NCBI GenBank assembly: GCA_018402485.1
Contig: JAGYIY010000001.1
Span: 776,001 to 840,000, forward strand
Direction: 5' to 3'
Length of the DNA: 64,000 nt
Source of the DNA: Roseivirga sp.
Lineage (GTDB): Bacteria; Bacteroidota; Bacteroidia; Cytophagales; Cyclobacteriaceae
Part shown: positions 9,994 to 34,556 of the stretch, piece after piece
How the letters are laid out: each line of letters opens with the position of its first letter
How positions within the stretch are numbered: the stretch's first letter is position 1
Made by a program: the position numbers and the translations under genes
The notes under the pieces: model-generated
Databases searched by the model: none
Told to the model about the DNA's origin: nothing
What the model saw: only the letters and a program-made list of their open reading frames with translations

Positions 9994-12900
9994 TCAATAA
10001 TTAATGTAAAGCTCTCCTTTGATTTTTTTTAAATCTGTTTTTGTTTCAAACTGTAGATAGTAAAAATATATACCTGCTGGTAAAAGTTCATTTTGTTGAT
10101 TTTTTCCTTCAAAGTACTTTCCGTTTTGACCGTAATTATCGGCTTCATAAACGGTTTGCCCCCACCGATTAAAAATAACAAGTTTGTTTTTGGGATATAA
10201 TTTTATGTTAGATATGACTAATTTGTCGTTTAATCTGTCCCCATTTGGGGAGATGGCATTATGTACAATAACTTCACATACTGCAAGGCTTGGAATAACC
10301 TCCAAACGAGTTAAACTTTTACAGTCTGCTTTGTTATCATAGAGCGCAGCATAAAAGGCTACCCCCTTTTTTAAGGGTGTATCTTTTGAAAGAACTTCTC
10401 CTCCATTTGGGCTGTTATACCACTCCAAAGTGAATCCCTGCGTGTCTACTTCTATATCTGCCAATGTCGCTTCTTGGGCTATGCAGAATACTAAATCAGA
10501 TGTAATCAAAGAGGGTGTTGGTACAGCATTGATTATTACCTCGACCTCCAGCCTCTGTAAACTTTCACAGCCATCTACAGTCTGTGTAGCATAAATCAAT
10601 TGCCCATCAGTAAGCGATACAGAATTATTCATTAGGGTGCCTCCATTTGCAGAGTCGTACCACTTGATATTTTCGCCTGTGGCTTTTAAATCTGATATCG
10701 TTGCCATATTGCAAAACGATTGCTCAGTATCACCTATTGGAGCAGTTGGAGCTGTAGCCTCAATGGTGATATATTCTCTACAAGTGATGCCATTGGTGGT
10801 AACATCTACCCAATACTCGGTAGTTTCAGTTGGACTTATCGAAATGGTTTTTGTAGTATCGTTTGTGGACCAAAGCACTTTATCAAAGGCTGTTGAATTT
10901 TTTATTTCGAAGAGTTCGAAAAATAAGTTGCCATAGTTATCACTGTAACGTGAATCTGTAAAACAAAACTCTTCTCTACCTCCCTCCCCTTTGAAATAAA
11001 AATAGTAATCTCCTTTTGAATTATAGACATCTGGGGAGGGTCTATGTGGAGAACTTCCCTTGCAAATACCACCATATCGACTCCAACCCCACCTTATTTC
11101 TGGAATTAATTGATTCTTATTAGTAGTATTAGGCAACCAATAAGCTGCATCTCGGGAGTCACCATTTGCCCCTCCCCAAGGTCCACCACTAACTTTTAAC
11201 ATATATTCAGTATCGACTGTAGTAATTGAGGTTGAATAATTAAAAGCATTGTTAAAATTCATAGTAAATGATTCAATAAATATTGTATCACCAATACTGT
11301 TAGTAGTTTCATTATCAATAGAAAGGGATACCCTATCCCCAGCACAGACTTTTGTAGCTGATGTTGTAATGGCTATATCCTGTATATCAACAGTTACTTT
11401 CAATCGATCTGTACTTTCACAACCATTAACGGTTTGTGAAGCATAAACCACTTGACTATCTGAAAGTGCTGCAGTAGCAGCTAATAAGTTCCCTTCTGTA
11501 GCCGCATCGTACCATTGGATATTTTCACCCGTAGCACCTAAGTCTGCTAGTATAGCCGCTATACAAAAGGTTTGCAGAGATTCACCCGTTGGAGCCGAAG
11601 GCGCTGTAACCTCAATGGTGATATACTCTCTACAAGTGACGCCGTTAGTGGTTACATCTACCCAATACTCGGTAGTTTCAGTTGGTTTTACAGAAATCGT
11701 TTCTGTGGTAGCTCCTGTGGACCAAATAATACTTGATTCATCGATAAAGCTTTGCTCGTAAATTGTAGGATCTATTTCCATGATAGGAACCATATTAGAA
11801 TAGCAAGAACCATTAGATGCATTATTACTAAGGTTATTCCAAGTATTATAGCCAAAGGAGCAACCTCTAATGATTTGAACATAAGGCTCTCCAAATGGTC
11901 CATTGTTGGGTTCTCCGGGTCTCCAATTAGTGTAAGCTATGTCAATACAATCCAACCATCTGAATTCACCTGATTCAGGATCTCGAAACATACCTATCCA
12001 AATGTTATTATTAGTGAGATTACTAACAAAACTATTTTCTTCTTCATTGTTTATACACACCAAATATCCTCCATTTTCACGCGCGATTCGTTCACCGTCC
12101 GTCCATGTTGTTGGTGAATTGTATACATAGTAGTAATGGCCGTTAAAGTACCCCCCATAAGTGAAGCCAGAAATTTCTTCACCAAATGGTATATCGGTTA
12201 AGGTTATATCCATATCGCAAATGGTAGGCTTTTGATAGTCAAGCGTAATTGTAACCTCTTCACCTGAACAAATCTTTGTGTCACTAGAAGTAATATGAAC
12301 ATCGGGAATGGCAATAGTTATGTCTAGTCGCTCTGTACTTTCACAACCATTAATGATTTGTGAAGCATAAACCACTTGACCATCTGAAAGCGCTGAGTTA
12401 GCATCTAATAAGTTGCCTTCAGTAGCTGCATCATACCATTGTATGTCTTCTCCAGTGGCCACTAAATCATCGACTTTGGGGGTAGTACAAAAGGTTTGCA
12501 GAGCGTCACCTTTTGGAGCTTTTGGAGCAGTCACATCAATGGTGATATATTCTCTACAAGTGACACCATTGGTGATAACATCTACCCAATACTTTGTAGT
12601 TTCAGTCGGGCTTACTGAAATGGTTTTTGTTGTTTCGCCAGTGGACCATAGATAAGCCGCGGGCTTAGCATTGAAAATACTTAAGACCTCATTGTCAGAA
12701 ACAGGTCTGTTCCAAACAATAATGTCATCCAATTTTCCTTTCCATTTATCATTACCACCGGTCTTTTGCCCTATATTGCCAGGTTCTTTGGAATAATCTA
12801 TTCCTCTTAATGCATCTAGCAATCCTTGATTGGTATTAGTACCACTATTAGCAAGCTGACCATCTATAAATAATGCTGAGGAACCGGTTGAAAAATCTGC

Positions 12901-13470
12901 CCTAAACAGGGCATGGTGCCAAGCCTCTGTTGGAACTGGGTTTACTCCACTCCATGCTCCTAAGCCACCTAATCCATTGCCAGGTGAAACGACATACCCA
13001 ATCTTACCATTTTGAACCATAAGATGAATACCCTTATTATTCTGATCTGTTTGACCTACATAAAACATTCTTGGGTTCGCATTATAACTACTGGTTAAAT
13101 AAAACCAGACCGAGACAGTTATCCCATCGGTGAAATTTATGTAGGATTCAGAAGTCTCAAAGGTCATTGACGAAGAGCCATCAAATGAATGTGCATTATT
13201 TGATGTACCATTTCTGTCAGCAGTGAGTGTTGCACCGCTATTTGTCAGCGTATTTCCATTTCCACTCTCGTCTTCAATATTCTCATTAAAGGGCCAATAA
13301 CTAACTAAGCCTTGTTGTGGTATGTCATTTATTGAAACACTAAGAATCGCTTCATTTTCAGTACAGATTTCGGTTTTGGTAGATTTAATTGAAAACCAGG
13401 AACAGTCATCACTAGCCTGAGAATAACCTACGATTGTAAGGAGCATGAAACAGATGAAAAATTTTTTCAT
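9994..13470 (-). CDS. Large T9SS-secreted protein with LamG-like and C-type lectin domains, CHU_C sorting domain
   Basis: A 1158-residue secreted protein. After a signal peptide (LLTIVGYSQAS), residues about 54-262 form a LamG/concanavalin-like domain (GLVSYWPFNENIEDESGNG, AWHHALFRADF, GKLDDIIVWNRPVSDNEV). Residues about 435-570 form a C-type-lectin-like domain containing WRPGEPNNGP near 515 (the EPN signature of mannose-type calcium sites) and a YNTWNNLSNN segment near 543. Three Ig-like modules of the type common in gliding-bacteria proteins follow the pattern LQTFC, GEDIQWYDAATEGNLL, VVYASQ, NGCES. The last 90 residues (AISPNGDRLNDKLVI, VIFNRWGQTVYE, LPAGIYFYYLQF) are a gliding-motility-associated C-terminal domain, which directs secretion by T9SS as a type B signal. 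It is divergent from the giant SprB-like gene. Likely role: surface carbohydrate binding or adhesion. Confidence 0.92.
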   Translation of the reverse strand: MKKFFICFMLLTIVGYSQASDDCSWFSIKSTKTEICTENEAILSVSINDIPQQGLVSYWPFNENIEDESGNGNTLTNSGATLTADRNGTSNNAHSFDGSSSMTFETSESYINFTDGITVSVWFYLTSSYNANPRMFYVGQTDQNNKGIHLMVQNGKIGYVVSPGNGLGGLGAWSGVNPVPTEAWHHALFRADFSTGSSALFIDGQLANSGTNTNQGLLDALRGIDYSKEPGNIGQKTGGNDKWKGKLDDIIVWNRPVSDNEVLSIFNAKPAAYLWSTGETTKTISVSPTETTKYWVDVITNGVTCREYITIDVTAPKAPKGDALQTFCTTPKVDDLVATGEDIQWYDAATEGNLLDANSALSDGQVVYASQIINGCESTERLDITIAIPDVHITSSDTKICSGEEVTITLDYQKPTICDMDITLTDIPFGEEISGFTYGGYFNGHYYYVYNSPTTWTDGERIARENGGYLVCINNEEENSFVSNLTNNNIWIGMFRDPESGEFRWLDCIDIAYTNWRPGEPNNGPFGEPYVQIIRGCSFGYNTWNNLSNNASNGSCYSNMVPIMEIDPTIYEQSFIDESSIIWSTGATTETISVKPTETTEYWVDVTTNGVTCREYITIEVTAPSAPTGESLQTFCIAAILADLGATGENIQWYDAATEGNLLAATAALSDSQVVYASQTVNGCESTDRLKVTVDIQDIAITTSATKVCAGDRVSLSIDNETTNSIGDTIFIESFTMNFNNAFNYSTSITTVDTEYMLKVSGGPWGGANGDSRDAAYWLPNTTNKNQLIPEIRWGWSRYGGICKGSSPHRPSPDVYNSKGDYYFYFKGEGGREEFCFTDSRYSDNYGNLFFELFEIKNSTAFDKVLWSTNDTTKTISISPTETTEYWVDVTTNGITCREYITIEATAPTAPIGDTEQSFCNMATISDLKATGENIKWYDSANGGTLMNNSVSLTDGQLIYATQTVDGCESLQRLEVEVIINAVPTPSLITSDLVFCIAQEATLADIEVDTQGFTLEWYNSPNGGEVLSKDTPLKKGVAFYAALYDNKADCKSLTRLEVIPSLAVCEVIVHNAISPNGDRLNDKLVISNIKLYPKNKLVIFNRWGQTVYEADNYGQNGKYFEGKNQQNELLPAGIYFYYLQFETKTDLKKIKGELYINY
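10520..12660 (-). repeat. Three dispersed near-identical DNA blocks encoding Ig-like modules
   Basis: Blocks near 10761-10860, 11613-11710 and 12537-12636 share most of their bases (each contains ctctacaagtga and acatctacccaatac), together with adjacent matching segments for the QWYDAATEGNLL part. They encode the same junction between consecutive modules (TEYWVDVTTNGVTCREYITI). Spacings are about 852 and 776 or 924 bases depending on pair, so the copies are separated by other domains. Confidence 0.8.
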
Positions 13471-13760: not shown

Positions 13761-16700
13761 ATGACGTCGTGTATCAGATATTTGACAGTATTTTTTCTGT
13801 CATTTTTTTTGTTATCCATTCAAACTTTCGGGCAAGAAATTGAGCTTATATCATTCAAATCTGAAGGTAACTATTTTCCTGGGGGTTCTATTTCTATTTT
13901 ATTTGAGCCAAAAGGGGTTTTCCCAATTGACAATGTCTTTAAGTTGGAGCTGTCTGATGAAACAGGAGACTTTACCTCATCCACTGTTTTAGCCACAGCT
14001 GAGGAGTTTTTTATTCCGATTCTGAATGGAATTATTCCAGAAGGAACACCACAGGGTAATGCCTACAAGCTAAGAATAACTTACGATACACCTGAAGGAC
14101 CTAGGGATTTCTATGATATTCCGGATTCATTTTCTATTGCGGCTCCACCGTCATCCTTTGACATTCCTTTTATAGAACCATTACAGCAGGGTATTGATTT
14201 TTCTTGTCTGAATGATCCAAATTCAAATAATAATCGAACAAATTACTTTTTTGGTAGTTTGAAACAGGACTTTGAAGGTGCATTAGAGGATAGCTTAGAA
14301 ATTTATCCAGTGAATAACACTTGGGGAAATTCTGAAATAACCATGTATTCATTAAATGATCAGAACCAATGGGTTGCTCAAAACCTTGATATAGAAGAAC
14401 CCTTTGTGAATGTGGAATTGTTCTACATTCCTGAAAATACAGCTGTTGGTTATCATTTAATAGAATTTATCAAAGAAGTAGAGGGTAGAGTTTTAACCTA
14501 CAGCTTTCTTTTCAACTTTAATACGGGAAACGCAGGGTTTGCGAATTTAACGAATGAAAGTGTTTGTGTAGGTTCGGATGTAAGTTTTGAAGTAGCCTTA
14601 CAAGGCATAAGTAAAAATTATCCTGGTTCGTTATATACTATTGATTATGGAGATGGTTCTGATGAAGAAATTTATACCCATGCTCAATTGCTTGCAAACT
14701 CTGTTCTTTCTCATACTTTTGAGAATTCCAGTTGCAGTTCCGATGAGGCCGTAACTGATGATGACAATAAAAAGGGTTTCAAAGTAGAATTCTACCTTCA
14801 AAATAAAGGATTAAGTGGTATATGCGATGACTACAGCCGAAATGGAAGTATAAAAACCACAACTGTAAATACTAGTATTGCTCCTCAAGCAGATTTTTCT
14901 ACCGAACCGGTTATCTGTGAAAATACCGTATTAAGGGCTACAGACAATTCCTTAGCTGGTGAGTATGGCGAAGAGAGTTGCTTGACTGACTATTTGAAAG
15001 AGTGGTTTGTTACTCCTCCAGGAGGTAAAAAAGTACGTATTAATCCGGATAATGAAGTTTTTGCGCAATGGATTGATGATAATGGCGACTTACAAATCCC
15101 TGCTCAATCTGTGAATCCTGGTTGTTGGCAAATCGAATTACAAGTTAGTAATCCAAGTACTGCTGGTTGTGATGTCTCAGATAATATTATTAAAGAAGTC
15201 TCTGTAGAGCTAACACCCGAGCCTTCTTTCACTTTCGCTCCGTCGTCTCCAGTATGTGAAGGCACAGAGATCAATTTTACCAATACTTCAAACCTTGTTC
15301 AAAATAGCTCACTTGAATGCCAAAACCCAACCTATGAGTGGGAGTTAAGCCCAATAAATGGCACTCCAGCCACTTCTGATGGATATTCATATACGCAAGG
15401 AACAACATCAGAATCTATCGATCCTGTCATTCAGTTTACTCAAGCTGGAAGCTATAATGTTGTTCTTTCTATCACCAATAGTTGTGGTACGTTTTCTTCT
15501 GATCCACAACGCATTGATGTATCTGGTGCGCCGAACGTGCTTTTTGAGACAGATGAACTCGCGGCTTGTCAAAAAGAACCGGCATCATATGATTTAGACT
15601 TTAATGCTTCACCCCAAAGACCTACTTTTGGAACTCCTCCTTTTGAACCTGATGACTTATTGTGGGAAGTTTTTGAAGCTGATGAAGTGACGCCAACGCC
15701 ATCGGCTAATTATGAATTTGTTAGTCCAACTAATTCAGCAAGTCAATATCCAACCATTAGGTTCAAAGCATTTGGTGAGTATAAAGTGAAAGTGACCGCA
15801 AATAATAACTGTGATGCGCAGGATGCTTTTTTTACCTTTAACCTTAAGCAAGAACCTGAGATTACTAATACAGACTTAATTCAAACCATTTGTTCAGGCG
15901 AAACTACATCGGATATTAATTTAACTTCCAACATGGCAGGAAGTACATTCACATGGACAGTAGCTTCGGTGTCAGGCTTAAGTGGCTACATTGAAGATGG
16001 ATCCGGTTCAACAATTCCAGCAGCGACCATTTTGAACTCTACCAATGAACCCTTAGAATTGGTATATGAAGTAGTAGCCACAAATAACGGATGCGATAGT
16101 GAGATTAAGGAATTTAGAATAACCGTTAACCCTACTCCAGAGATAGAGGATATATCTGAGCAGGTATGTAGTGGAGATACCTTCACAGTGACTCCATTAG
16201 ATGGTGGAGGGGTTAGTAGTTCAGATATTGTACCAGCTGGTACGACCTACACCTGGACGGTTGTAGATAATCCTGCTGTAGATGGTGAGTCTGCTGAGTC
16301 AGGACAGACAGAGATTAGTCAGACCTTAATCAATACGACTAATGAGGCTCAAGATGTGATCTACACCGTTATACCTACATCTGGATCAGCGGGTAATTGT
16401 CAGGGTCAGCCATTTACGCTTACGGTAACAGTGAATCCTACTCCAGAGGTTGAGGCAACACCAGCTTCTCAGGAGATTTGTTCTGGGGATGAAACAGGCA
16501 TAGTGTTAACGACACCTACAACAGGGACAGAAGCAATAACATACAGTTGGACAGCAACAACAAGTAGCGCAGACATTACTGGCTTTACAGATCACGCTGA
16601 CAAAACCCTTGCAGAAATCAGACAGCTCTTAACCAACGATGGGACAAGTCCTGGTGTTGTGACCTATACAATTACCCCACATATCGGTAATTGTGTTGGA

Positions 16701-19700
16701 ACACCGATTGATGTTGCTGTGACAGTGAATCCTACTCCAGAGATAGAGGACATATCTGAGCAGGTATGTAGTGGAGATACCTTTACAGTGACTCCAGTAG
16801 ATGGCGGTGGGGATATAGTACCGCCTAATACGACCTACACCTGGACGGTTGTAGATAATCCTGCTGTAGATGGTGAGTCTGCTGAGACAACGGGTCAGAC
16901 AGAGATTAGTCAGACCTTAATCAATACGACTAATGAGGCTCAAGATGTGATATACACGGTTATACCTACATCTGGATCAGCGGGTAATTGCGAGGGTCAG
17001 CCTTTTACGCTTACGGTAACCGTGAATCCTACTCCAGAGGTAGAAGCAACACCAGCCTCTGAGGAGATTTGTTCTGGGGATGAAACAGGTATATTGTTAA
17101 CGACACCTACAACAGGGACAGAATCAATTACATACAGTTGGGTTGCAGCAATTACAACGGTACCAGATGGAGGAACGATTACAGGCTTCACAAATCAAAG
17201 TCCTAGTGCTTTGGATGAGATCAGACAACCCTTAACCAACGATGGTACAAGCCCTGGTGTTGTTACTTATACAATAACCCCACATATCGGTGATTGCGTT
17301 GGAACACCGATAGATGTTGCTGTGACAGTGAATCCATTTGGTCAGGTTGATCCTATTGTAGATCAAGTGGTGTGTAGTGGAGATGACACACAAGAAGTAG
17401 TGTTTACTACTCAAAATTCAGGAGGTACAACAAGTTACTCTTGGGTTATGGATACAGATATCGGTGCTGGATTGTCTGGCTCTGGTGATCTTCCAGCATT
17501 TACTACAGTGAATGCAACTAACGTACCAATAGTGGCTACCGTAACAGTAACGCCAACACTCAACAATGGCGGAGTAAGTTGTGCAGGGCCACCAGAAACT
17601 TTTACCATCACCGTTAACCCTACTCCAGAGATAGAGGATATATCTGAGCAGGTATGTAGTGGAGATACCTTCACAGTGACTCCATTAGATGGTGGAGGGG
17701 TTAGTAGTTCAGATATTGTACCAGCTGGTACGACCTACACCTGGACGGTTGTAGATAATCCTGCTGTAGATGGTGAGTCTGCTGAGTCAGGACAGACAGA
17801 GATTAGTCAGACCTTAATCAATACGACTAATGAGGCTCAAGATGTGATCTACACCGTTATACCTACATCTGGATCAGCGGGTAATTGTCAGGGTCAGCCT
17901 TTTACGCTTACGGTAACAGTGAATCCTACTCCAGAGGTAGAGGCAACACCAGCCTCTCAGGAGATTTGTTCTGGAGATGAAACAGGCATAGTGTTAACAA
18001 CACCTACCACAGGAACAGAACCGATTACATACAGTTGGGTAGCGGCAATAACCACATCGCCCAACGGCGGAACGATTACAGGCTTCTCCGACCAAAGTCC
18101 TAGCGCTCTAGATGAGATCAGACAACCTTTAACTAATAATGGGACAAGTCCTGGTGTTGTGACCTATACAATTACCCCACATATCGGTGATTGTGTTGGA
18201 ACACCGATTGATGTTGCGGTGACAGTAAATCCATCTGGTCAGGTTGATCCTATTGAAGATCAAGTGGTGTGTAATGGAGAGGAGACAGAAGAGGTGATAT
18301 TCACTACCCAAAAAGGAGGTACAACAAGTTATTCTTGGGAGATGGATATAGATATTGGTGCTGGATTGTCTGGCTCTGGTGATCTTCCAGCATTTACTGC
18401 AGTGAATGCGACTAACGCCCCAATAGTGGCTACAGTAACGGTAACCCTTACGCTTACAAATGGGGGAGGAGGCTGTGCAGGTCCACCAGAAACTTTTACC
18501 ATTACCGTGAATCCTACTCCAGAGGTAGAAGCAACACCAGCCTCTGAGGAGATTTGTTCTGGGGATGAAACAGGTATATTGTTAACGACACCTACAACAG
18601 GGACAGAATCAATTACATACAGTTGGGTTGCAGCAATTACAACGGTACCAGATGGAGGAACGATTACAGGCTTCACAAATCAAAGTCCTAGTGCTTTGGA
18701 TGAGATCAGACAACCCTTAACCAACGATGGTACAAGCCCTGGTGTTGTTACTTATACAATAACCCCACATATCGGTGATTGCGTTGGAACACCGATAGAT
18801 GTTGCTGTGACAGTGAATCCATCTGGTCAGGTTGATCCTATTGTAGATCAAGTGGTGTGTAGTGGAGATGACACACAAGAAGTAATATTCACTACTCAAA
18901 ATTCAGGAGGTACCACAAGTTATTCGTGGGTAATGGATACAGATATCGGTGCCGACCTGTCTGGCACGGGTAATCTTCCGGCGTTTACAACAGTGAATGC
19001 GACTAACGCTCCAATAGTGGCTACCGTAACAGTAACGCCAACACTCAACAATGGCGGAGTAAGTTGTGCAGGGCCACCAGAAACTTTTAGCATCACCGTT
19101 AACCCTACTCCAGAGATAGAAGATATATCTGAGCAGGTTTGTAATGGAGATATCTTCACAGTGAAACCAGTAAATGGTGAAGGGGGCAATCCAGACATAG
19201 TACCAGCAGGTACGACTTATATTTGGACAGTTGTAGATAATCCGAATGTAGATGGCGACGAGGATGAGTTAAACCCTCAGACAGAGATCAGTCAGGCACT
19301 GATTAATAACACGAATACACCTCAAGATGTGACTTACACGGTTACACCTAGATCGGGATCAGCGGGTAATTGCCAGGGTCAGCCTTTTACGCTTACGGTA
19401 ACCGTGAATCCTACTCCACAGGTAGAAGCAACACCAGCCTCTGAGGAGATTTGTTCTGGGGATGAAACAGGCATAGTGTTAACGACACCTACAACAGGGA
19501 CAGAAGCAATTACATACAGTTGGACAGCAACAACAAGTAGCGCAGATATCACAGGTTTAAAAGATCACACTGAGAGAACACTTTCAGAAATCAGACAGCT
19601 CTTAACCAACGATGGGACAAGTCCTGGTGTTGTGACCTATACAATTACCCCACATATCGGTAATTGTGTTGGAACACCGATAGATGTTGCTGTGACGGTG

Positions 19701-22700
19701 AATCCTACTCCAGAGATAGAGGACATATCTGAGCAGGTATGTAGTGGAGATACCTTTACAGTGACTCCAGTAGATGGCGGTGGGGATATAGTACCGCCTA
19801 ATACGACCTACACCTGGACGGTTGTAGATAATCCTGCTGTAGATGGTGAGTCTGCTGAGACAACGGGTCAGACAGAGATTAGTCAGACCTTAATCAATAC
19901 GACTAATGAGGCTCAAGATGTGATATACACGGTTATACCTACATCTGGATCAGCGGGTAATTGCGAGGGTCAGCCTTTTACGCTTACGGTAACCGTGAAT
20001 CCTACTCCAGAGGTAGAAGCAACACCAGCCTCTGAGGAGATTTGTTCTGGGGATGAAACAGGTATATTGTTAACGACACCTACAACAGGGACAGAATCAA
20101 TTACATACAGTTGGGTTGCAGCAATTACAACGGTACCAGATGGAGGAACGATTACAGGCTTCACAAATCAAAGTCCTAGTGCTTTGGATGAGATCAGACA
20201 ACCCTTAACCAACGATGGTACAAGCCCTGGTGTTGTTACTTATACAATAACCCCACATATCGGTGATTGCGTTGGAACACCGATAGATGTTGCTGTGACA
20301 GTGAATCCATTTGGTCAGGTTGATCCTATTGTAGATCAAGTGGTGTGTAGTGGAGATGACACACAAGAAGTAGTGTTTACTACTCAAAATTCAGGAGGTA
20401 CAACAAGTTACTCTTGGGTTATGGATACAGATATCGGTGCTGGATTGTCTGGCTCTGGTGATCTTCCAGCATTTACTACAGTGAATGCAACTAACGTACC
20501 AATAGTGGCTACCGTAACAGTAACGCCAACACTCAACAATGGCGGAGTAAGTTGTGCAGGGCCACCAGAAACTTTTACCATCACCGTTAACCCTACTCCA
20601 GAGATAGAGGATATATCTGAGCAGGTATGTAGTGGAGATACCTTCACAGTGACTCCATTAGATGGTGGAGGGGTTAGTAGTTCAGATATTGTACCAGCTG
20701 GTACTCAATATACTTGGACGATCAAAACGGATAATCCTGATATAGAAGGTCAATCAGCTGAGACTAACCCACAGAATAGTATATCTCAGACCTTACGAAA
20801 TAAAACGATTGTTGATCAGGTCATCGTTTATGAAGTGACTCCTACATCAGGTTTATGTGTGGGAGTGCCATTTGAGCTAACCGTTGAGGTTAGCCCTGCA
20901 CCACAGATAAAAGATGTTGAAGATCAGGTGATTTGTAGTGGCGATACCTTCATAGTAATTCCTACAAATAGCGGTGGGGACATAGTACCGACCAATACAA
21001 CTTACACTTGGACAGTTGTAGATAACCCTAATGTGACAGGCGAAAGTAATGAGTCAACGAGTCAATCAGAGATCCGTCAGACGCTGACTAATAACACGAA
21101 TACACCCCAAGAAGTAATCTACACGGTAGTGCCGGTAACTGGCGCGGGTTGTGAAGGGGATACCTTTACGGTAACAGTCACCGTTAAGGATCTAATTGTC
21201 ATCAGCGGTGATCCAAATGATTACAATGGTTTTGGTATATCTTGTCACGGTGCGGATGATGGATTTATTGAGCCCACCATCACTGGAGGAAAACTGCCTA
21301 CAGATGATCCAAACTATGTTTACAGTTGGTCTGGTCCTAATGGGTATACGGCAACCAGTAAAGACATTTATAATTTAGCACCAGGGACCTATTCACTTAC
21401 AGTAGGTGATGGAGAGAATATTTGCCAACAAGCAAGCACTTTTGAGATTACAGAGCCCGACCCGATTACGGTTCAAGGGGATTTATCAGAATATAACTCT
21501 TTTGAGATTAGCTGTAATGGAGAAAGTGACGGTTCAATTACCCTTGCTGTACAAGGGGGTACAGGCCCAGGCACTTATCTCTATACTTGGTCGGCCTCTA
21601 ATGGAGGAGCCATACCAATAGGTCAGGAAAATGCAGCCAACTTAACAGGCATTCCCGCAGGAGATTATGAAGTGAGCGTAACAGACCTTAATAATTGTAC
21701 ACCCATTGTTGTGCAATATACCCTTACACAGCCCGACCCTATCACCCTTTTGGAAGAAACCAATACCCGTGTAAATGTACTTTGTTATGGAGAGGCTACA
21801 GGGAGCATTAGGGTAGTAGCAGCAGGTGGTTCTCCGGGATATGTCTATACGCTCAATGGGCAATCTTTTGACGGAGAGAATGTAAGCCGCCAATCGGAGC
21901 TTAAAACCAGTAACATACATACCTTTGAAAATTTGTTGGCGGGGGAATACGTATTATCTGTGGTTGACTTGAATGCCTGTCAAACCACCTTGCCATCGAT
22001 AGCCATTACACAGCCCAATGCCCCATTGCAAACGCAAAATATACTGCTTTCAGATTATAATGGCTTCAACGTAAACTGCTTCGGTGATGCCAATGGTTCT
22101 ATCAGTTTAGAAGTGACTGGCGGGGTGGCGCCTTATCAATATGCATGGGAGGGCCCCAATGGCTTTACCTCAACTAGCCAAAATATTCAAGGAATAGAAG
22201 CAGGAAATTACGAGCTAACAGTTACCGACAGTAACGAATGCGTGTATGTAGAAAACATTGAAGTAACCAGTCCTGAAGAAATTACGCTCGACGCCACTCC
22301 ACAGAATGTGCTTTGCGGTGGTGCAGGTGATGGTAATATCTTTATCAACAGCATTACAGGAGGGACAGGCTCGTACGTATTTGTTTGGATAAAGGATGGT
22401 GAAGGAGAGATCAAACGAACCTTCGCGCCAGAAGACCTGACAAATATTGGCCCAGGCAGTTATGTGCTGATTGTAACCGACGAAAATAATTGTAACAAAG
22501 TATATAGCTATGAGATTACGGAACCTGAGCCATTGATCATCAATGTTGATAATCAGTTAGATATACAATGTTTTGGAGAAGACGATGGACTTATTGAGGT
22601 GGATATAAAGGGGGGTACAGCCCCTTATGTGTACAACTGGAGCGGGCCAGATGGCTTCAGTTCTTCAAATGAGGATATCTACGATTTATTTGCCGGAACT

Positions 22701-25004
22701 TATGTGCTGGAAATCACTGATGCCTTGCAGTGTACACAACAGATTTCCATTGCACTCTCCCAGCCTACAGAGATATTGATTAACCCGGTGGTGACCAATG
22801 TTACTTGCTTCGAAGGTACAGATGGTGCCATAGACCTTACGTTAGAAGGAGGTGTCGCACCTTATCAATTGACTTGGTCTGGTCCGGATGGATTCACATC
22901 TACAAATGAGGACTTAGCAAACCTTAAAGCAGGAGTTTATGACTTAGCCGTACTTGATGAAGCAAATTGTACGCGTCTATTCACAATAGAAGTTCAACAG
23001 CCTGATGAATTGGAGATAGATGCCCTTGTTTCAGACTATAATGGTTTTAACATTGGTTGTAAAAATGGAAATAACGGGTTCATTGACATCACAATGTCAG
23101 GCGGCAATGGCGACTACAAATATTTTTGGGAAGGGCCCCTTGGTTTCAGAGCGAACACGGAAGATGTAAACCTTTTGACAGCCGGTCTTTATAACTTAAC
23201 TGTTGTAGATATGGAGGGATGTAGTATATCGGAATCCTTTACATTAACAGAACCGAATGAGCTTCTTCTTACTGAAGATGACCTTGACATCGTTGATGTC
23301 TCTTGCTTTGGAGGGAATAACGGGATGATTACGGTCAATATCCGCCAAGCTTCGGCTGCACCTTATACCTATGTGCTTCAGGGAGTAGACATTAATGGTG
23401 TCCCTTATCAGCGTACCGAAACACGAGATGATCTTATTTACTCCTTCGATGATTTAAGAGCGGGGATTTATGAGCTTTCCGTTTCTGATGCTAATAACTG
23501 TTCTTTGACAGAACTCACGGGGCTAGAGATTCAACAGCCAGATGCAGCGCTTTCTGCCGATATAATCAAATCAGATGTGAGATGTTTTGGTGCTAATGAC
23601 GGGGCGATACAAATACTTCCTACAGGAGGAACGGCCCCGTATAACATTCAATGGAACATGGGTTCTCGTGCTTTCGACCTCAATAACTTGTCTCCAGGTA
23701 CTTATACTGCTACCCTCTTCGATGCCAATGGTTGTGAGTTTCCTCTTGCTATAGAAGTTTTGGAAGCGCCTGTATATGCATTTAACGAAGTCGTTAATGA
23801 CATCTCATGCAATGGACAACAAGATGGATCTATTGAATTGAACATCATTGGTGGGGAACAACCCTTGGAGATTCAATGGGTGCATGGTCCACAAGAACCC
23901 AATCTCTACAACCTAGAAGCGGGCATTTATGAGGTAACGGTCACAGATGCTATTGGTTGTGTGATTACAGCAAGCTATGCCATTAATGAGCCGGCAGCCT
24001 TATCCATGAATGCTACGGTTACTAACGCTCTGGATTGTGAGGAGGTATCCTCTGGTAATATTGCTATTTCTCCGGTGGGAGGTACCCCTCCTTATACATA
24101 TGAATGGAGTAATGGTACAAACAACCAAAACTTGGTGGGAGTTGGCCCAGGAACCTATAGCTTAAAAATTACAGATGAACGAGCGTGTACCATCATCAGA
24201 AGTTTTGAAATACAAAGACCCCAAGAAATAGAAGTGAGAACGGAAATAAATTCCACTAGGGTGTGCGAGCCTAGAAGGTTAGAAACGGTCTTTGCAACAG
24301 AGGTTACTGGAGGCATAGCCCCTTATACCTTGGAATGGAGCAGGGGTAATGTCGAAGATGAAGGGTCTGTTATGCAAACAGAAGAGTTAGGAGTATTCTT
24401 CCTTTATGTTACCGATAGCCGAGGATGTAAAAAAACGTTTACTTATGAGGTAATTGATTCAGATCCTCTTATTCCTGATTTTGCTTACGATGCTGAACCG
24501 ATAGAAACAGGAGATCGATTTGTCATCAATAATCCAATCAGTTTTACCGATTTATCGGAAGGAACTTTTATTGAACAACGCTGGGACTTTGGTGATGGCG
24601 GTTTTTCTTTGGAGCAAAACCCTACGCACACGTTCACTGCAGCTGCCGATTTTGAGGTGGTGCTCTATTTAACCGATGAGACAGGATGCATTGTTGAAAA
24701 AAGAAGAACGATAAAAATCGAGGAAGGATATAGGGTAATGATGCCAAATGCCTTTACACCGAATGGTGACGGACGCAATGACTTCTATGCACCCAGTTTC
24801 TTGGGCTTCAGAGAGATTACTTTCTTGGTTTATAACACTTGGGGCGAGCTAATATATGCTTCAGATGATCTTCAGCTCAAGGGGTGGAATGGTGAAGCCA
24901 AAAATGAAGCGGCAGAGAATGGTAATTATATTTACAAGTTCATTGGAATTAGTCATCTCGGTATTAAAGTGGAGTTAGAAGATAATTTTGTATTGATTCG
25001 TTGA
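13761..25004 (+). CDS. Giant SprB-like T9SS surface adhesin
   Basis: A 3747-residue secreted protein. A signal peptide (SFFLLSIQTFGQ) is followed by residues about 26-790 with several PKD-like/Ig-like segments (DFSTEPVICENT, SFTFAPSSPVCEGTEINF). Residues about 790-2476 hold 17 modules of about 100 residues, each starting near NPTPE or NPxGQVDP and containing an ICSGD or VCSGD motif. Residues about 2477-3560 hold 12-13 SprB-type repeats with the pattern CFGxxDGxI, GGxxPYxYxWxGPxGF, LxAGxY. A PKD domain (WDFGDGGFSLEQNPTHTF) lies near 3610, and the final 85 residues (MPNAFTPNGDGRNDF, YNTWGELIY, NGNYIYKF) are a gliding-motility-associated T9SS sorting domain. SprB of Flavobacterium johnsoniae is a mobile cell-surface adhesin used in gliding; this protein shares its repeat type and its downstream partner. 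It may serve gliding or attachment. Confidence 0.93.
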   Translation: MTSCIRYLTVFFLSFFLLSIQTFGQEIELISFKSEGNYFPGGSISILFEPKGVFPIDNVFKLELSDETGDFTSSTVLATAEEFFIPILNGIIPEGTPQGNAYKLRITYDTPEGPRDFYDIPDSFSIAAPPSSFDIPFIEPLQQGIDFSCLNDPNSNNNRTNYFFGSLKQDFEGALEDSLEIYPVNNTWGNSEITMYSLNDQNQWVAQNLDIEEPFVNVELFYIPENTAVGYHLIEFIKEVEGRVLTYSFLFNFNTGNAGFANLTNESVCVGSDVSFEVALQGISKNYPGSLYTIDYGDGSDEEIYTHAQLLANSVLSHTFENSSCSSDEAVTDDDNKKGFKVEFYLQNKGLSGICDDYSRNGSIKTTTVNTSIAPQADFSTEPVICENTVLRATDNSLAGEYGEESCLTDYLKEWFVTPPGGKKVRINPDNEVFAQWIDDNGDLQIPAQSVNPGCWQIELQVSNPSTAGCDVSDNIIKEVSVELTPEPSFTFAPSSPVCEGTEINFTNTSNLVQNSSLECQNPTYEWELSPINGTPATSDGYSYTQGTTSESIDPVIQFTQAGSYNVVLSITNSCGTFSSDPQRIDVSGAPNVLFETDELAACQKEPASYDLDFNASPQRPTFGTPPFEPDDLLWEVFEADEVTPTPSANYEFVSPTNSASQYPTIRFKAFGEYKVKVTANNNCDAQDAFFTFNLKQEPEITNTDLIQTICSGETTSDINLTSNMAGSTFTWTVASVSGLSGYIEDGSGSTIPAATILNSTNEPLELVYEVVATNNGCDSEIKEFRITVNPTPEIEDISEQVCSGDTFTVTPLDGGGVSSSDIVPAGTTYTWTVVDNPAVDGESAESGQTEISQTLINTTNEAQDVIYTVIPTSGSAGNCQGQPFTLTVTVNPTPEVEATPASQEICSGDETGIVLTTPTTGTEAITYSWTATTSSADITGFTDHADKTLAEIRQLLTNDGTSPGVVTYTITPHIGNCVGTPIDVAVTVNPTPEIEDISEQVCSGDTFTVTPVDGGGDIVPPNTTYTWTVVDNPAVDGESAETTGQTEISQTLINTTNEAQDVIYTVIPTSGSAGNCEGQPFTLTVTVNPTPEVEATPASEEICSGDETGILLTTPTTGTESITYSWVAAITTVPDGGTITGFTNQSPSALDEIRQPLTNDGTSPGVVTYTITPHIGDCVGTPIDVAVTVNPFGQVDPIVDQVVCSGDDTQEVVFTTQNSGGTTSYSWVMDTDIGAGLSGSGDLPAFTTVNATNVPIVATVTVTPTLNNGGVSCAGPPETFTITVNPTPEIEDISEQVCSGDTFTVTPLDGGGVSSSDIVPAGTTYTWTVVDNPAVDGESAESGQTEISQTLINTTNEAQDVIYTVIPTSGSAGNCQGQPFTLTVTVNPTPEVEATPASQEICSGDETGIVLTTPTTGTEPITYSWVAAITTSPNGGTITGFSDQSPSALDEIRQPLTNNGTSPGVVTYTITPHIGDCVGTPIDVAVTVNPSGQVDPIEDQVVCNGEETEEVIFTTQKGGTTSYSWEMDIDIGAGLSGSGDLPAFTAVNATNAPIVATVTVTLTLTNGGGGCAGPPETFTITVNPTPEVEATPASEEICSGDETGILLTTPTTGTESITYSWVAAITTVPDGGTITGFTNQSPSALDEIRQPLTNDGTSPGVVTYTITPHIGDCVGTPIDVAVTVNPSGQVDPIVDQVVCSGDDTQEVIFTTQNSGGTTSYSWVMDTDIGADLSGTGNLPAFTTVNATNAPIVATVTVTPTLNNGGVSCAGPPETFSITVNPTPEIEDISEQVCNGDIFTVKPVNGEGGNPDIVPAGTTYIWTVVDNPNVDGDEDELNPQTEISQALINNTNTPQDVTYTVTPRSGSAGNCQGQPFTLTVTVNPTPQVEATPASEEICSGDETGIVLTTPTTGTEAITYSWTATTSSADITGLKDHTERTLSEIRQLLTNDGTSPGVVTYTITPHIGNCVGTPIDVAVTVNPTPEIEDISEQVCSGDTFTVTPVDGGGDIVPPNTTYTWTVVDNPAVDGESAETTGQTEISQTLINTTNEAQDVIYTVIPTSGSAGNCEGQPFTLTVTVNPTPEVEATPASEEICSGDETGILLTTPTTGTESITYSWVAAITTVPDGGTITGFTNQSPSALDEIRQPLTNDGTSPGVVTYTITPHIGDCVGTPIDVAVTVNPFGQVDPIVDQVVCSGDDTQEVVFTTQNSGGTTSYSWVMDTDIGAGLSGSGDLPAFTTVNATNVPIVATVTVTPTLNNGGVSCAGPPETFTITVNPTPEIEDISEQVCSGDTFTVTPLDGGGVSSSDIVPAGTQYTWTIKTDNPDIEGQSAETNPQNSISQTLRNKTIVDQVIVYEVTPTSGLCVGVPFELTVEVSPAPQIKDVEDQVICSGDTFIVIPTNSGGDIVPTNTTYTWTVVDNPNVTGESNESTSQSEIRQTLTNNTNTPQEVIYTVVPVTGAGCEGDTFTVTVTVKDLIVISGDPNDYNGFGISCHGADDGFIEPTITGGKLPTDDPNYVYSWSGPNGYTATSKDIYNLAPGTYSLTVGDGENICQQASTFEITEPDPITVQGDLSEYNSFEISCNGESDGSITLAVQGGTGPGTYLYTWSASNGGAIPIGQENAANLTGIPAGDYEVSVTDLNNCTPIVVQYTLTQPDPITLLEETNTRVNVLCYGEATGSIRVVAAGGSPGYVYTLNGQSFDGENVSRQSELKTSNIHTFENLLAGEYVLSVVDLNACQTTLPSIAITQPNAPLQTQNILLSDYNGFNVNCFGDANGSISLEVTGGVAPYQYAWEGPNGFTSTSQNIQGIEAGNYELTVTDSNECVYVENIEVTSPEEITLDATPQNVLCGGAGDGNIFINSITGGTGSYVFVWIKDGEGEIKRTFAPEDLTNIGPGSYVLIVTDENNCNKVYSYEITEPEPLIINVDNQLDIQCFGEDDGLIEVDIKGGTAPYVYNWSGPDGFSSSNEDIYDLFAGTYVLEITDALQCTQQISIALSQPTEILINPVVTNVTCFEGTDGAIDLTLEGGVAPYQLTWSGPDGFTSTNEDLANLKAGVYDLAVLDEANCTRLFTIEVQQPDELEIDALVSDYNGFNIGCKNGNNGFIDITMSGGNGDYKYFWEGPLGFRANTEDVNLLTAGLYNLTVVDMEGCSISESFTLTEPNELLLTEDDLDIVDVSCFGGNNGMITVNIRQASAAPYTYVLQGVDINGVPYQRTETRDDLIYSFDDLRAGIYELSVSDANNCSLTELTGLEIQQPDAALSADIIKSDVRCFGANDGAIQILPTGGTAPYNIQWNMGSRAFDLNNLSPGTYTATLFDANGCEFPLAIEVLEAPVYAFNEVVNDISCNGQQDGSIELNIIGGEQPLEIQWVHGPQEPNLYNLEAGIYEVTVTDAIGCVITASYAINEPAALSMNATVTNALDCEEVSSGNIAISPVGGTPPYTYEWSNGTNNQNLVGVGPGTYSLKITDERACTIIRSFEIQRPQEIEVRTEINSTRVCEPRRLETVFATEVTGGIAPYTLEWSRGNVEDEGSVMQTEELGVFFLYVTDSRGCKKTFTYEVIDSDPLIPDFAYDAEPIETGDRFVINNPISFTDLSEGTFIEQRWDFGDGGFSLEQNPTHTFTAAADFEVVLYLTDETGCIVEKRRTIKIEEGYRVMMPNAFTPNGDGRNDFYAPSFLGFREITFLVYNTWGELIYASDDLQLKGWNGEAKNEAAENGNYIYKFIGISHLGIKVELEDNFVLIR
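16122..17609 (+). repeat. Super-repeat unit 1 (five modules, A-B-A-B-C)
   Basis: A 1488-base unit inside the giant adhesin gene. The five modules begin with PEIEDISEQVC (A), PEVEATPAS (B) or GQVDPI (C). Its first 290 bases (16122-16411) are identical by eye to the start of unit 2 (17610-17899). Confidence 0.88.
16725..17731 (+). repeat. Copy 1 of a 1007-base perfect direct repeat
   Basis: Line-by-line comparison finds no difference between this segment and 19698-20704, at a constant offset of 2973 bases. It covers the A-B-C modules at the end of unit 1 and the start of the next A module. Confidence 0.88.
17610..19094 (+). repeat. Super-repeat unit 2 (five modules, A-B-C-B-C)
   Basis: A 1485-base unit following directly on unit 1. 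Its third module is C-type where units 1 and 3 have A-type. Bases 18504-18822 (319 bases) are identical by eye to 17019-17337 in unit 1. Confidence 0.87.
19095..20582 (+). repeat. Super-repeat unit 3 (five modules, A-B-A-B-C)
   Basis: A 1488-base unit. Its first A module is diverged (VCNGDIFTVKPVNGEGG), while its last three modules are part of a block identical to unit 1. A further partial A module starts at 20583 and diverges after 20704. Confidence 0.87.
19698..20704 (+). repeat. Copy 2 of a 1007-base perfect direct repeat
   Basis: Identical by eye to 16725-17731. The base just before the repeat differs (g against a at 19697/16724) and the sequence diverges immediately after 20704, which fixes both ends. 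Confidence 0.88.
21190..24450 (+). repeat. Array of 12-13 SprB-type protein repeats
   Basis: Protein-level repeats of about 80-95 residues, each with a Cys near its start (SCHGADDGFIEP, VNCFGDANGSI, VRCFGANDGAI, ISCNGQQDGSI) and an AGxYxLxVxD ending. Unlike the upstream modules, these are well diverged at DNA level. The last copy (RVCEPRRLETVF) is degenerate. Confidence 0.88.
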
Positions 25005-25008
25005 TTAC

Positions 25009-26034
25009 ATGAAAGGTATCAAATTTATTCTTGGTTTATGTTTAATGTTAAGTATAAATCTATCGAAAGCGCAAGATGTTCAGTTCTCTCAGTTTTATGC
25101 AGCGCCTTTATATTTGAATCCTGCTTTTACTGGATCCACAGAAAGAGGGAGGGCAGGGTTAAACTTTAGAAGGCAATGGCCTGCACTTAATCATTCCTTT
25201 ACTACCGTGTCTGCATTTTCAGATTACCACCTGAATAACTTAAATAGTGGCATAGGCTTTATTTTAAATCAACACAAAGAAGACTTCTTAGGTTTTCAAT
25301 CCACAGAGGTAGGTTTATTGTACGCTTATAAATTGAAATTAACGGATGCACTTGTGTTAAGGGCAGGTATTCAAGGTTCACTATTTAATAAAAATATAAA
25401 TTTTGAAAACCTTGTTTTTGGCAATCAGATAGATATTGTCAACGGACAAGTAATTGGAGCTAGTGGAGAGGTTTTTAATGTAGATGCGAATAGTTCTTTT
25501 CTAAGTCTTTCATCTGGTTTACTGTTGTATACTAATAATTTTTGGTTTGGAGGTAGTGTGCATCACATCAATCAGCCCAGCCAATCATTTATAGATGGAA
25601 ATAGTGTACTCAAAAGAAAGTATTCATTTCACATGGGTTATAAGTTTAGCCTAGCTAGTGGCGGTAGATTGAGAAGTTTATCATATCAGTTTCAAGAAAG
25701 ATCATTGAGTCTAGCCGTTAACTATAAGAGACAAGGTGGGTTTTCGCAATTTGATTTTGGGGCTCAGTTGTATTTGCAACCGTTGGTTTTCGGCTTGAGC
25801 TACCGCGGATTACCCTTTAGCCCTTTGGAGAACCTTTTCAATAGCGATGCCCTTATTACCCTGGTAGGGGTAGAACTCAATCAGAATGTTTCAATGGCCT
25901 ATAGTTATGATTTTACCATATCAAAACTCGCCAATGCATCTGGTGGTGCACACGAAATTTCCTTGACCTTTAGGTTTGGTAAGGTTTCCAGACGATCTAG
26001 AAGAGATACCATCCTGCCCTGTTTTAAATACTAA
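25009..26034 (+). CDS. PorP/SprF family type IX secretion outer-membrane protein
   Basis: A 341-residue outer-membrane protein with signal peptide (LMLSINLSKAQDV) and the family hallmark right after it: QFSQFYAAPLYLNPAFTGS, then RAGLNFRRQWPAL. The remainder alternates as beta-strands (LSLAVNYKRQGGFSQFDFG, FGLSYRGLPFSP). PorP/SprF proteins are partners of individual T9SS cargo proteins; SprF is needed to place SprB on the surface of Flavobacterium johnsoniae. The start lies 4 bases after the stop of the giant adhesin, so the two form one transcript, and by position this protein is its dedicated partner. Confidence 0.95.
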   Translation: MKGIKFILGLCLMLSINLSKAQDVQFSQFYAAPLYLNPAFTGSTERGRAGLNFRRQWPALNHSFTTVSAFSDYHLNNLNSGIGFILNQHKEDFLGFQSTEVGLLYAYKLKLTDALVLRAGIQGSLFNKNINFENLVFGNQIDIVNGQVIGASGEVFNVDANSSFLSLSSGLLLYTNNFWFGGSVHHINQPSQSFIDGNSVLKRKYSFHMGYKFSLASGGRLRSLSYQFQERSLSLAVNYKRQGGFSQFDFGAQLYLQPLVFGLSYRGLPFSPLENLFNSDALITLVGVELNQNVSMAYSYDFTISKLANASGGAHEISLTFRFGKVSRRSRRDTILPCFKY

Positions 26035-32462: not shown

Positions 32463-34556
32463 TTAAGATATCCTTCCCCAATTCACCACATTTTTACGGA
32501 GTGAACGGATATGACGATCAATATTCATGTGCTCTGGTCGCTGAAGCTGTGGGTCTCTTTCTAGCACATCGCTAGCCGCATTTCTGGCTAACTGAAGAAT
32601 TTTGCTGTCTTTGGCAATATCGGCTATCAACAGGTCGAGCACGCCACTCTGCTGCGTGCCGGTGAGATCTCCGGGGCCACGAAGTTTCAGGTCGACATCG
32701 GCAATTTCAAAACCATTGTTGGTTCTCACCATGGTATCAATCCGTAGTCGGGCTTCTTTGCTCAATTTATAGTCAGTCATTAAAATACAATAGGATTGCT
32801 CTGCGCCTCGTCCTACGCGTCCGCGCAACTGGTGTAATTGGGCAAGTCCAAACCTTTCGGCGTTTTCTATTACCATTACCGACGCATTGGGAACATTCAC
32901 CCCAACTTCAATCACAGTTGTGGCAACCATGAGTTGGGTTTCATGTCGTACAAAGCGTTGCATTTCAAACTCCTTGTCCTGTGGTTTCATTTTACCATGG
33001 ACAATACTAATGTGCTGATCTGGAAATGCCCTGCGAACGCTTTCATAACCGTCCATAAGATCTTTCAAGTCCATTTTTTCCGACTCTTCAATTAAGGGGT
33101 AAACCATGTAAATTTGTCTGCTTTTGATAATTTCTTTCCGCAGAAAACCAAATACTTGAAGGCGTTTACTATCATATTCGTGTATTGTTTTGATGGGTTT
33201 ACGTCCTGCTGGTAACTCGTCGATAACGGACACATCCAAATCACCATAAAGGGTCATGGCTAGGGTACGTGGTATAGGTGTGGCTGTCATGACAAGAATA
33301 TGCGGGTAGGCACTTTTATTTTTGGCCCATAATTTGGCCCTTTGAGCTACACCGAAACGATGTTGCTCGTCGATCACAGCAAGGCCTAAGTTTTGGAAAG
33401 CTACTTTATCTTCTATCAGTGCGTGGGTACCTACCAGAATTTTGAGCGTACCATTTTCTAGTTGTTCATGCAGTATTTTACGCGCCGATTTTTTGGTAGA
33501 TCCCGTTAGTTTGCCAATTGAAATACCCAAGGCATCTGCGTGTTTCTTCAATCCTTCAAAATGTTGTTCCGCCAAAATCTCAGTTGGAGCCATCATAGCG
33601 CATTGTGCTCCAGAGCTTACTACAATTAACATGCTGATGAAAGCGACAATGGTTTTTCCTGAGCCAACGTCTCCTTGCAAGAGGCGATTCATTTGTCGAC
33701 CGGATTTCATGTCTTCATAAATTTCGCGTATCACACGTTTTTGAGCGCCTGTTAGATCGAAAGGAAGGTGATCCGTATAAAATTTTGTTAATAATCCTGT
33801 TTGACTAAACACGGCGCCTTGGAATTTTTCAATGCGAGCTATTTTTAGTTTCAGCAAGCGCAACTGAATAAAGAATAGCTCTTCAAACTTTAAACGGAAC
33901 TGTGCCTTTTGCAAGAGTTCCATATTAGATGGAAAGTGAATATGCCACAAGGCAAATCGCTTTTCAATCAAAATAAATTTCTCCAAAAATTCATCGGGTA
34001 AAGTTTCAGAAATGCGGTCTTCGCAAACAGCTAGCACTTGTCTCACCATTTTGGAAATGGCTTTAGAATCGATGTACTTGGCTTTTAGTTTTTCCGAGGT
34101 ATGATATACGGGTTGAAGAAACCCTGCTGTTTCGTTTTGTGTTGTGAGCACCTCTACTTCAGGGTGGGCCATGTTAATTTTCCGCCCAAAACGCGCTGGT
34201 TTACCAAAAACTACGTAGTCAACACCCATCTTGAGCTTATTTACAACCCAATTGATGCCCTTAAACCAGACCAATTCAATGTCGTCTGTACCATCGGAAA
34301 ACTGAATGACCAGCCGTCTCTTACCCCCCTCTCCAATGGTTTCCATTTTGCGAATGCGCCCTTTGATCTGCACAAATGGCATGTCTTCGTCAATGTCTTC
34401 AATGCGCTGAAACTTGGTGCGGTCTTCGTAACGAAAAGGGTAATATTGAATAAGATCGCCATAAGTAAAGAGGCCTAATTCTTTATTGATGTGAGCCGCT
34501 TTTTGCGGCCCAACACCCTTTAAAAATTCAATTCCGGTTTCAAAAAAATTGGCCAT
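32463..34556 (-). CDS. recG: ATP-dependent DNA helicase RecG
   Basis: A 697-residue helicase, the standard length. An N-terminal wedge/OB domain (FVQIKGRIRKMETIGEGG) is followed by the helicase core with Walker A (GDVGSGKTIVAF), the DEQH-type motif II (AVIDEQHRFGVAQRA), motif III (VMTATPIPRTLAMTL) and motif VI (QLRGRVGRGAEQSYC). RecG remodels stalled replication forks and branch-migrates Holliday junctions. It ends 7 bases from the convergent DegT gene and starts 9 bases from the end of gldD, so it is probably the last gene of the mutY-ssb-gldE-gldD-recG transcript. Confidence 0.98.
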   Translation of the reverse strand: MANFFETGIEFLKGVGPQKAAHINKELGLFTYGDLIQYYPFRYEDRTKFQRIEDIDEDMPFVQIKGRIRKMETIGEGGKRRLVIQFSDGTDDIELVWFKGINWVVNKLKMGVDYVVFGKPARFGRKINMAHPEVEVLTTQNETAGFLQPVYHTSEKLKAKYIDSKAISKMVRQVLAVCEDRISETLPDEFLEKFILIEKRFALWHIHFPSNMELLQKAQFRLKFEELFFIQLRLLKLKIARIEKFQGAVFSQTGLLTKFYTDHLPFDLTGAQKRVIREIYEDMKSGRQMNRLLQGDVGSGKTIVAFISMLIVVSSGAQCAMMAPTEILAEQHFEGLKKHADALGISIGKLTGSTKKSARKILHEQLENGTLKILVGTHALIEDKVAFQNLGLAVIDEQHRFGVAQRAKLWAKNKSAYPHILVMTATPIPRTLAMTLYGDLDVSVIDELPAGRKPIKTIHEYDSKRLQVFGFLRKEIIKSRQIYMVYPLIEESEKMDLKDLMDGYESVRRAFPDQHISIVHGKMKPQDKEFEMQRFVRHETQLMVATTVIEVGVNVPNASVMVIENAERFGLAQLHQLRGRVGRGAEQSYCILMTDYKLSKEARLRIDTMVRTNNGFEIADVDLKLRGPGDLTGTQQSGVLDLLIADIAKDSKILQLARNAASDVLERDPQLQRPEHMNIDRHIRSLRKNVVNWGRIS

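Follow-up and report, generated by a model that had tools for sequence, protein, structure and literature searches.

A five-module super-repeat in the PKD-like array of a predicted giant adhesin from Roseivirga sp.

Organization of the array

The 64,000-nucleotide stretch of Roseivirga sp. DNA analysed here (the window) encodes a giant protein in which PKD-like modules are arranged as three tandem units of five, and this super-repeat is real and goes beyond the order of module types alone. We think it probable that the array grew by recombination of multi-module blocks, was partly converted afterwards, and serves as the stalk of a predicted adhesin. Cutting at a conserved TVNP border gives 18 modules, M0 to M17, of 94–102 aa (Table 1). 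An earlier note on this DNA had counted 17, which holds for M1–M17, and the total is 18 because a distant module, M0, precedes them; its order of types for M1–M17 (A B A B C / A B C B C / A B A B C / A / A') is borne out by the translation. M16 has the same initial 110 nt as M1 and M6, with a whole-module identity of 75%. The array matches the PKD-like model PF19406 at 591.5 bits (curated cut-off 25) in 14 stretches, and a genome search with this model places 14 matches in the array and none on the four C modules. The type B sorting domain passes the TIGR04131 cut-off narrowly (35.3 bits versus 35), and CHU_C scores 46.3 bits versus 27. We note that the divergently oriented minus-strand neighbour (9994-13470) encodes a second T9SS type B protein, of 1,158 aa, with laminin-G-like, C-type lectin and Ig_7 domains, and that the window also contains genes for a RecG helicase (32463-34556) and GldE (35153-36511), and a GldB-like gene (41850-43139).

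Table 1. Coordinates of the giant ORF, its array, exact repeats and the adjoining carrier gene (positions in the window)
Feature	Coordinates	Strand	Basis or remarks
Giant ORF, 3,747 aa	13761..25004	+	Unique N-terminal part, PKD-like array, SprB repeats, PKD domain, T9SS type B sorting domain
M0, divergent first PKD-like module	15849..16133	+	37-48% DNA identity to other modules
Exact 290-bp tract (M1)	16122..16411	+	Same as 17610-17899 (M6); lag 1488
Unit 1, M1-M5, ABABC, 1488 bp	16134..17621	+	Module cutting and identity table
Exact 1007-bp tract, copy 1: M3, M4, M5 and 110 nt of M6	16725..17731	+	Lag 2973
Unit 2, M6-M10, ABCBC, 1485 bp	17622..19106	+	Module cutting and identity table
Exact 319-bp tract (M9)	18504..18822	+	Same as 17019-17337 (M4) and 19992-20310 (M14); lags 1485, 1488
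Unit 3, M11-M15, ABABC, 1488 bp	19107..20594	+	Module cutting and identity table
Exact 1007-bp tract, copy 2: M13, M14, M15 and 110 nt of M16	19698..20704	+	Lag 2973
M16 (A) and M17 (A'), array end	20595..21188	+	Module cutting and identity table
SprB-repeat region	21192..24530 (approximate, from translation)	+	PF13573, 11 stretches, 314.5 bits
T9SS type B C-terminal sorting domain (CHU_C / TIGR04131)	24738..24950	+	Profile matches
PorP/SprF-family outer-membrane carrier, next gene	25009..26034	+	TIGR03519, 244 bits versus cut-off 90.55

The three strongest lags in a DNA self-match over the ORF are 2973 (0.399), 1488 (0.361) and 1485 (0.348), against a median of 0.251, and these are the offsets that had been claimed for matching copies; weaker lags are 591 (two modules, 0.328), 2076 (0.325) and 897 (three modules, 0.320). 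A simple periodicity of about 300 bases alone, which had been named as the contrary case, is ruled out by this comparison, the 1.5-kb period being the stronger. TRF, for which the longest period was 500 bases, listed no arrays in the window. Module types match at a distance of five or ten modules in 13 of 15 cases, a level equalled in 33 of 100,000 shuffles of the 15 modules and reached in 371 of 50,000 when identical neighbours are barred. The clustering of matching positions between units that had been anticipated is seen in 12 of the 15 modules, for which the nearest relative is the same-position copy. The exceptions within M1–M15 are M7 and M8, which are nearest to modules at other positions, and M11 (unit 3, position 1), which is tied, at 81% to M1/M6 and likewise to M3/M13. 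Same-position pairs are 92.6% identical at the DNA level (n=13) versus 86.2% for other same-type pairs (n=18); in a modest test with type order fixed and copies shuffled within type, the same-position identity was equalled in 237 of 20,000 shuffles. Mean module identity is 71% at lag 5 versus 35% at lag 1 (p 0.002, the lowest value that 500 shuffles allow), with 52% at lag 2, 50% at lag 3 and 35% at each of lags 4 and 6.

Exact tracts and mosaic structure

Several exact repeats lie within the array (Table 1), and the limits of 16122 and 20704 that the earlier note had given for the super-repeat coincide with their outer ends; in addition, a 122-bp exact repeat is shared by the starts of M1 and M16. 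There are no synonymous differences in M3/M13, M4/M9, M4/M14 or M5/M15, and one in M1/M6 (0.013 per synonymous site), compared with 0.15–0.43 per synonymous site in nine other same-type pairs. Outside the exact tracts, 60-nt windows are 33–98% identical between units. Between units 1 and 3 these are 72–90% identical in module 1 (only 72–75% across much of it), 85–98% in module 2, and 100% from module 3 onward; between units 1 and 2 they are 33–63% identical in module 3, where an A faces a C, and rise to 100% in module 4.

The units thus read as mosaics, a structure that fits block duplication and later copying: because exact tracts lie beside old divergence, recent copying between old units has likely involved both single modules and groups of them. 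Array growth would likely have occurred through unequal recombination involving entire blocks of several modules, followed by partial homogenization that was likely gene conversion, a process not separable from crossover in one sequence. The last large event in the window may have copied a stretch of 1007 bp or more between units 1 and 3. The single module represented by M4, M9 and M14 appears to have been shared among all three units.

Comparison with the closest homologue

The closest homologue found via the N-terminal 700 aa is P0002, a protein of 4,270 aa with 51% identity over that part, whose array consists of three tandem ABCBC units followed by A-type modules. Of the history put forward in the earlier note, unit-level duplication stands, with later local copying indicated by the exact tracts beside old divergence, but the designation of unit 2 as the altered one is not supported, as P0002 carries ABCBC in all three units. 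By parsimony with this one outgroup, ABCBC may be the older order and the ABABC of units 1 and 3 a candidate derived state. The position-3 A modules of units 1 and 3 are both inside the 1007-bp exact tract, such that one change and one copying event would suffice.

Orthology of units with P0002, position by position, is not seen in the module scores. All six B modules of the Roseivirga array score best with the second B of P0002 and all four C modules with its first C, and this convergence on single copies suggests either that position identity has been erased or that the orders evolved in parallel. The module tree has supported groups for B and for C that span both proteins (100 and 99), within which the P0002 copies group together (100 and 99) and the window copies form no supported groups of their own; the A-type modules lack a single supported group. 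Of 149 proteins typed with models from the window protein and P0002, and among those with at least six typed modules, a repeated ABCBC order was found in these two only. The gene is absent from all 18 congeners examined, and no strain series of the exact gene was found.

Block-wise length variation and assembly

Three relatives appear to differ in length by whole blocks. P0008 and P0009 share identical sequence in their initial 700 and final 1,200 aa and differ in the copy numbers of two blocks: a two-module block (205 aa) is present in two copies in P0008 and three in P0009, and a 292-aa block, read as three Ig-like modules, in two and four copies respectively. P0005 matches P0008 with 98% identity at either end and carries a single copy of each block. 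The lengths of P0005, P0008 and P0009 (3,893, 4,390 and 5,179 aa) fit these block counts exactly, and the three may represent a natural series in which length changes by blocks, with repeat collapse in the shorter assemblies a possible contributor.

Assembly also bears on the exact tracts. The source genome (2.57 Mb, 17 contigs, 84.6% complete) is likely a metagenome bin, and because it is incomplete and fragmented, the exact identity of copies could stem in part from assembly, as could the copy numbers in P0005, P0008 and P0009. The exact tracts are also longer than short reads, should those underlie the assembly. Nevertheless, we regard it as highly improbable that the exact repeats are simply an assembly artefact: beyond the tracts the three units show many differences and so are separate copies, and P0002, on another contig, also has three units. 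Moreover, an array in a one-contig genome (L040 in G124) contains exact repeats of a like kind that are longer, at 2006 and 1025 bp, indicating that such identity does not come solely from fragmented assemblies.

Higher-order units in other arrays

Arrays of at least eight modules were compared at lags of one to nine modules, up to half of the array, and the lag with the highest mean identity was taken; a higher-order unit was scored where this lag was at least two, with p ≤0.01 in 500 shuffles and identity at least 8 points above lag 1. The protein lists (30 of 30 matches, the best 120 of 1,029, and the best 120 of 881) are biased to long arrays and overlap in ancestry. With the window array as query, and itself included, 149 proteins gave 130 arrays, 27 of them with a higher-order unit: five modules in 22, seven in three, and four and nine in one each. 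A control query, L060, which has no higher-order unit itself, gave 72 arrays from 77 further proteins, and the 14 with a unit include ten of five modules, two of four, one of six and one of two. A genome sample, found with the PF19406 model from 80 regions hand-picked (non-randomly) among listed matches with long frames, yielded 35 arrays and four units, three of three modules and one of five; in this sample alone five is not dominant. The suggestion that five is an artefact of the query is partly rejected, since the L060 query also favours it, with the genome sample counting the other way.

Pooled, 45 of 237 arrays have a higher-order unit, of five modules in 33 and with five-module lengths of 434–509 aa; after clustering (25% shared 6-mers; 137 clusters), the figures are 34 with a unit and 22 with five. 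Lag 5 is also the highest, by less than 8 points, in L084, L102, L105 and L106 (p 0.028, 0.002, 0.311 and 0.371) and in L050 (p 0.138). Module spacing in the five-unit arrays spans only 87–103 aa, and a fixed DNA length and a fixed module number are not separable over this range. One array, L085 (3538-14391), from a distant genome of six contigs, has 34 modules with a clear but old five-module unit (lag 5 62% versus lag 1 43%) and a different pattern, two alike followed by three alike. In a control family, Ig_7, a small sample of 20 regions gave nine arrays of at least eight modules, with one unit of six and none of five. The six-module unit is in L162 (G357), which has 52 Ig_7 modules; at about 511 aa it is near the length of five PKD-like modules.

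Two alternatives to growth by recombination of multi-module blocks deserve weight. In the first, five is not preferred as such: two modules (AB) and three modules (ABC) were duplicated separately, and the unit of five is their by-product, as the raised lags 2 and 3 in the window would suggest; these lags are raised in P0002, P0004, P0079, P0143, P0149 and P0150 as well, and it is two- and three-module blocks that separate P0008 from P0009. However, lag 5 stands alone in P0036, P0048, P0112 and P0119, and five is ahead of two, three and four at each threshold used (4, 8, 12 and 16 points), and we consider this explanation possible but doubtful. The second, which we judge slightly less probable still, is that ABCBC is an old inherited unit, with five modules forming one repeat of a proposed stalk superhelix, the rhythm being kept by selection and conversion acting to homogenize the copies; it is compatible with block duplication. 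The three ABCBC units of P0002, the modal status of five with its narrow range of lengths, and the ten fives among 14 units obtained with a query lacking a unit are all in keeping with this reading, but the genome sample is not, and common module order is rare. Order was compared in the 231 pairs formed by 22 five-unit representatives: the best cyclic match of unit positions ranked first among 120 orders in 15 pairs (9.6 expected), and only four pairs share order by at least 9 points (P0182-P0186, P0001-P0002, P0112-P0137 and P0051-P0122). The lack of a common order in most five-unit arrays points to independent origins or to erasure of orders by homogenization, and is not proof of independence. 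The more general proposal that PKD-like giant adhesins of the Bacteroidota lock into five across lineages with unrelated orders, other registers being selected against by a superhelix repeat, seems to us unlikely to hold.

Returning to block recombination, which we favour, one consequence would be that duplication of a block lengthens the array without making neighbours of identical modules. Lag 1 is below the mean of the other off-period lags in 29 of the 45 arrays, by a mean of 1.3 points, a weak avoidance of like neighbours. Counting against such avoidance, lags 4 and 6 in the window array are as low as lag 1, and the L071 control arrays contain runs of identical neighbours.

Export and anchoring

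The predicted function of the array, from sequence features of the protein and its neighbour, is likely that of a stalk in a type IX-secreted, SprF-anchored adhesin. The T9SS translocon protein SprA is present in the genome (TIGR04189, 2413 bits versus 200), and the best match to the profile of the track protein GldJ is 183.7 bits against a cut-off of 458.2. SprF is reported to bind the C-terminal 368 aa of SprB (PMC9143113), and a Cys-X-Cys in the SprF tail to be needed for gliding (PMC12635249). The carrier encoded next to the giant ORF lacks Cys-X-Cys in its tail and has a single cysteine, Cys338 of 341, in a PCFKY end, which is possibly a variant of the GldK link. Of 15 relatives read, 10 retain this single C-terminal cysteine. 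At 41 loci of named relatives with PorP next door, none of the 39 long plus-strand frames, many of them cut by the flank, has two or more PKD-like modules. Export by the T9SS and retention at the outer membrane by the adjoining PorP/SprF protein would together make the array the determinant of how far the N-terminal part reaches.

Discussion

Multi-domain duplication units, familiar from eukaryotic proteins such as nebulin (PMC1553488), can now be placed in giant surface proteins of bacteria. One period is preferred within the protein sets that were searched, and there are signs that length changes block by block. A real preference for five would connect recombination, the geometry of the fibre and the length of the adhesin in a way open to testing. 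Assemblies built from short reads may give wrong lengths for such genes.

The window protein resembles the PF19406 (PKD_5) arrays of Bacteroidota, which are of the same module family and occur in giant proteins that in many cases carry a T9SS sorting domain; it departs from these arrays generally in having three module types in a five-module super-unit. With the SprB-SprF system of Flavobacterium johnsoniae it shares SprB repeats, a type B sorting domain, a PorP/SprF gene directly downstream and SprA in the genome, but differs in the one-cysteine carrier tail and in the PKD-like array ahead of the SprB part. Similarity to the Aureispira GhpA grappling hook (PDB 9flp, 9flw and 9fls) is at middling Z scores common to many Ig/PKD-like folds, and no GhpA chains are among the sequence matches. 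Five-module units in PKD-like adhesins were not found in the titles and abstract openings listed by searches of the open-access PMC literature. The nearest parallel is nebulin, in which autocorrelation of this type revealed a seven-domain duplication unit (PMC1553488); the portion of that paper drawn on here mentions bacterial Ig-like repeats and gives no such unit for them. A fixed multi-domain unit is common to both, whereas the window array is bacterial, has five modules to the unit and contains long tracts of exact DNA identity. Multi-domain duplication units are therefore already known, and what is apparently new is a preference for units of five modules among PKD-like giants of bacteria.
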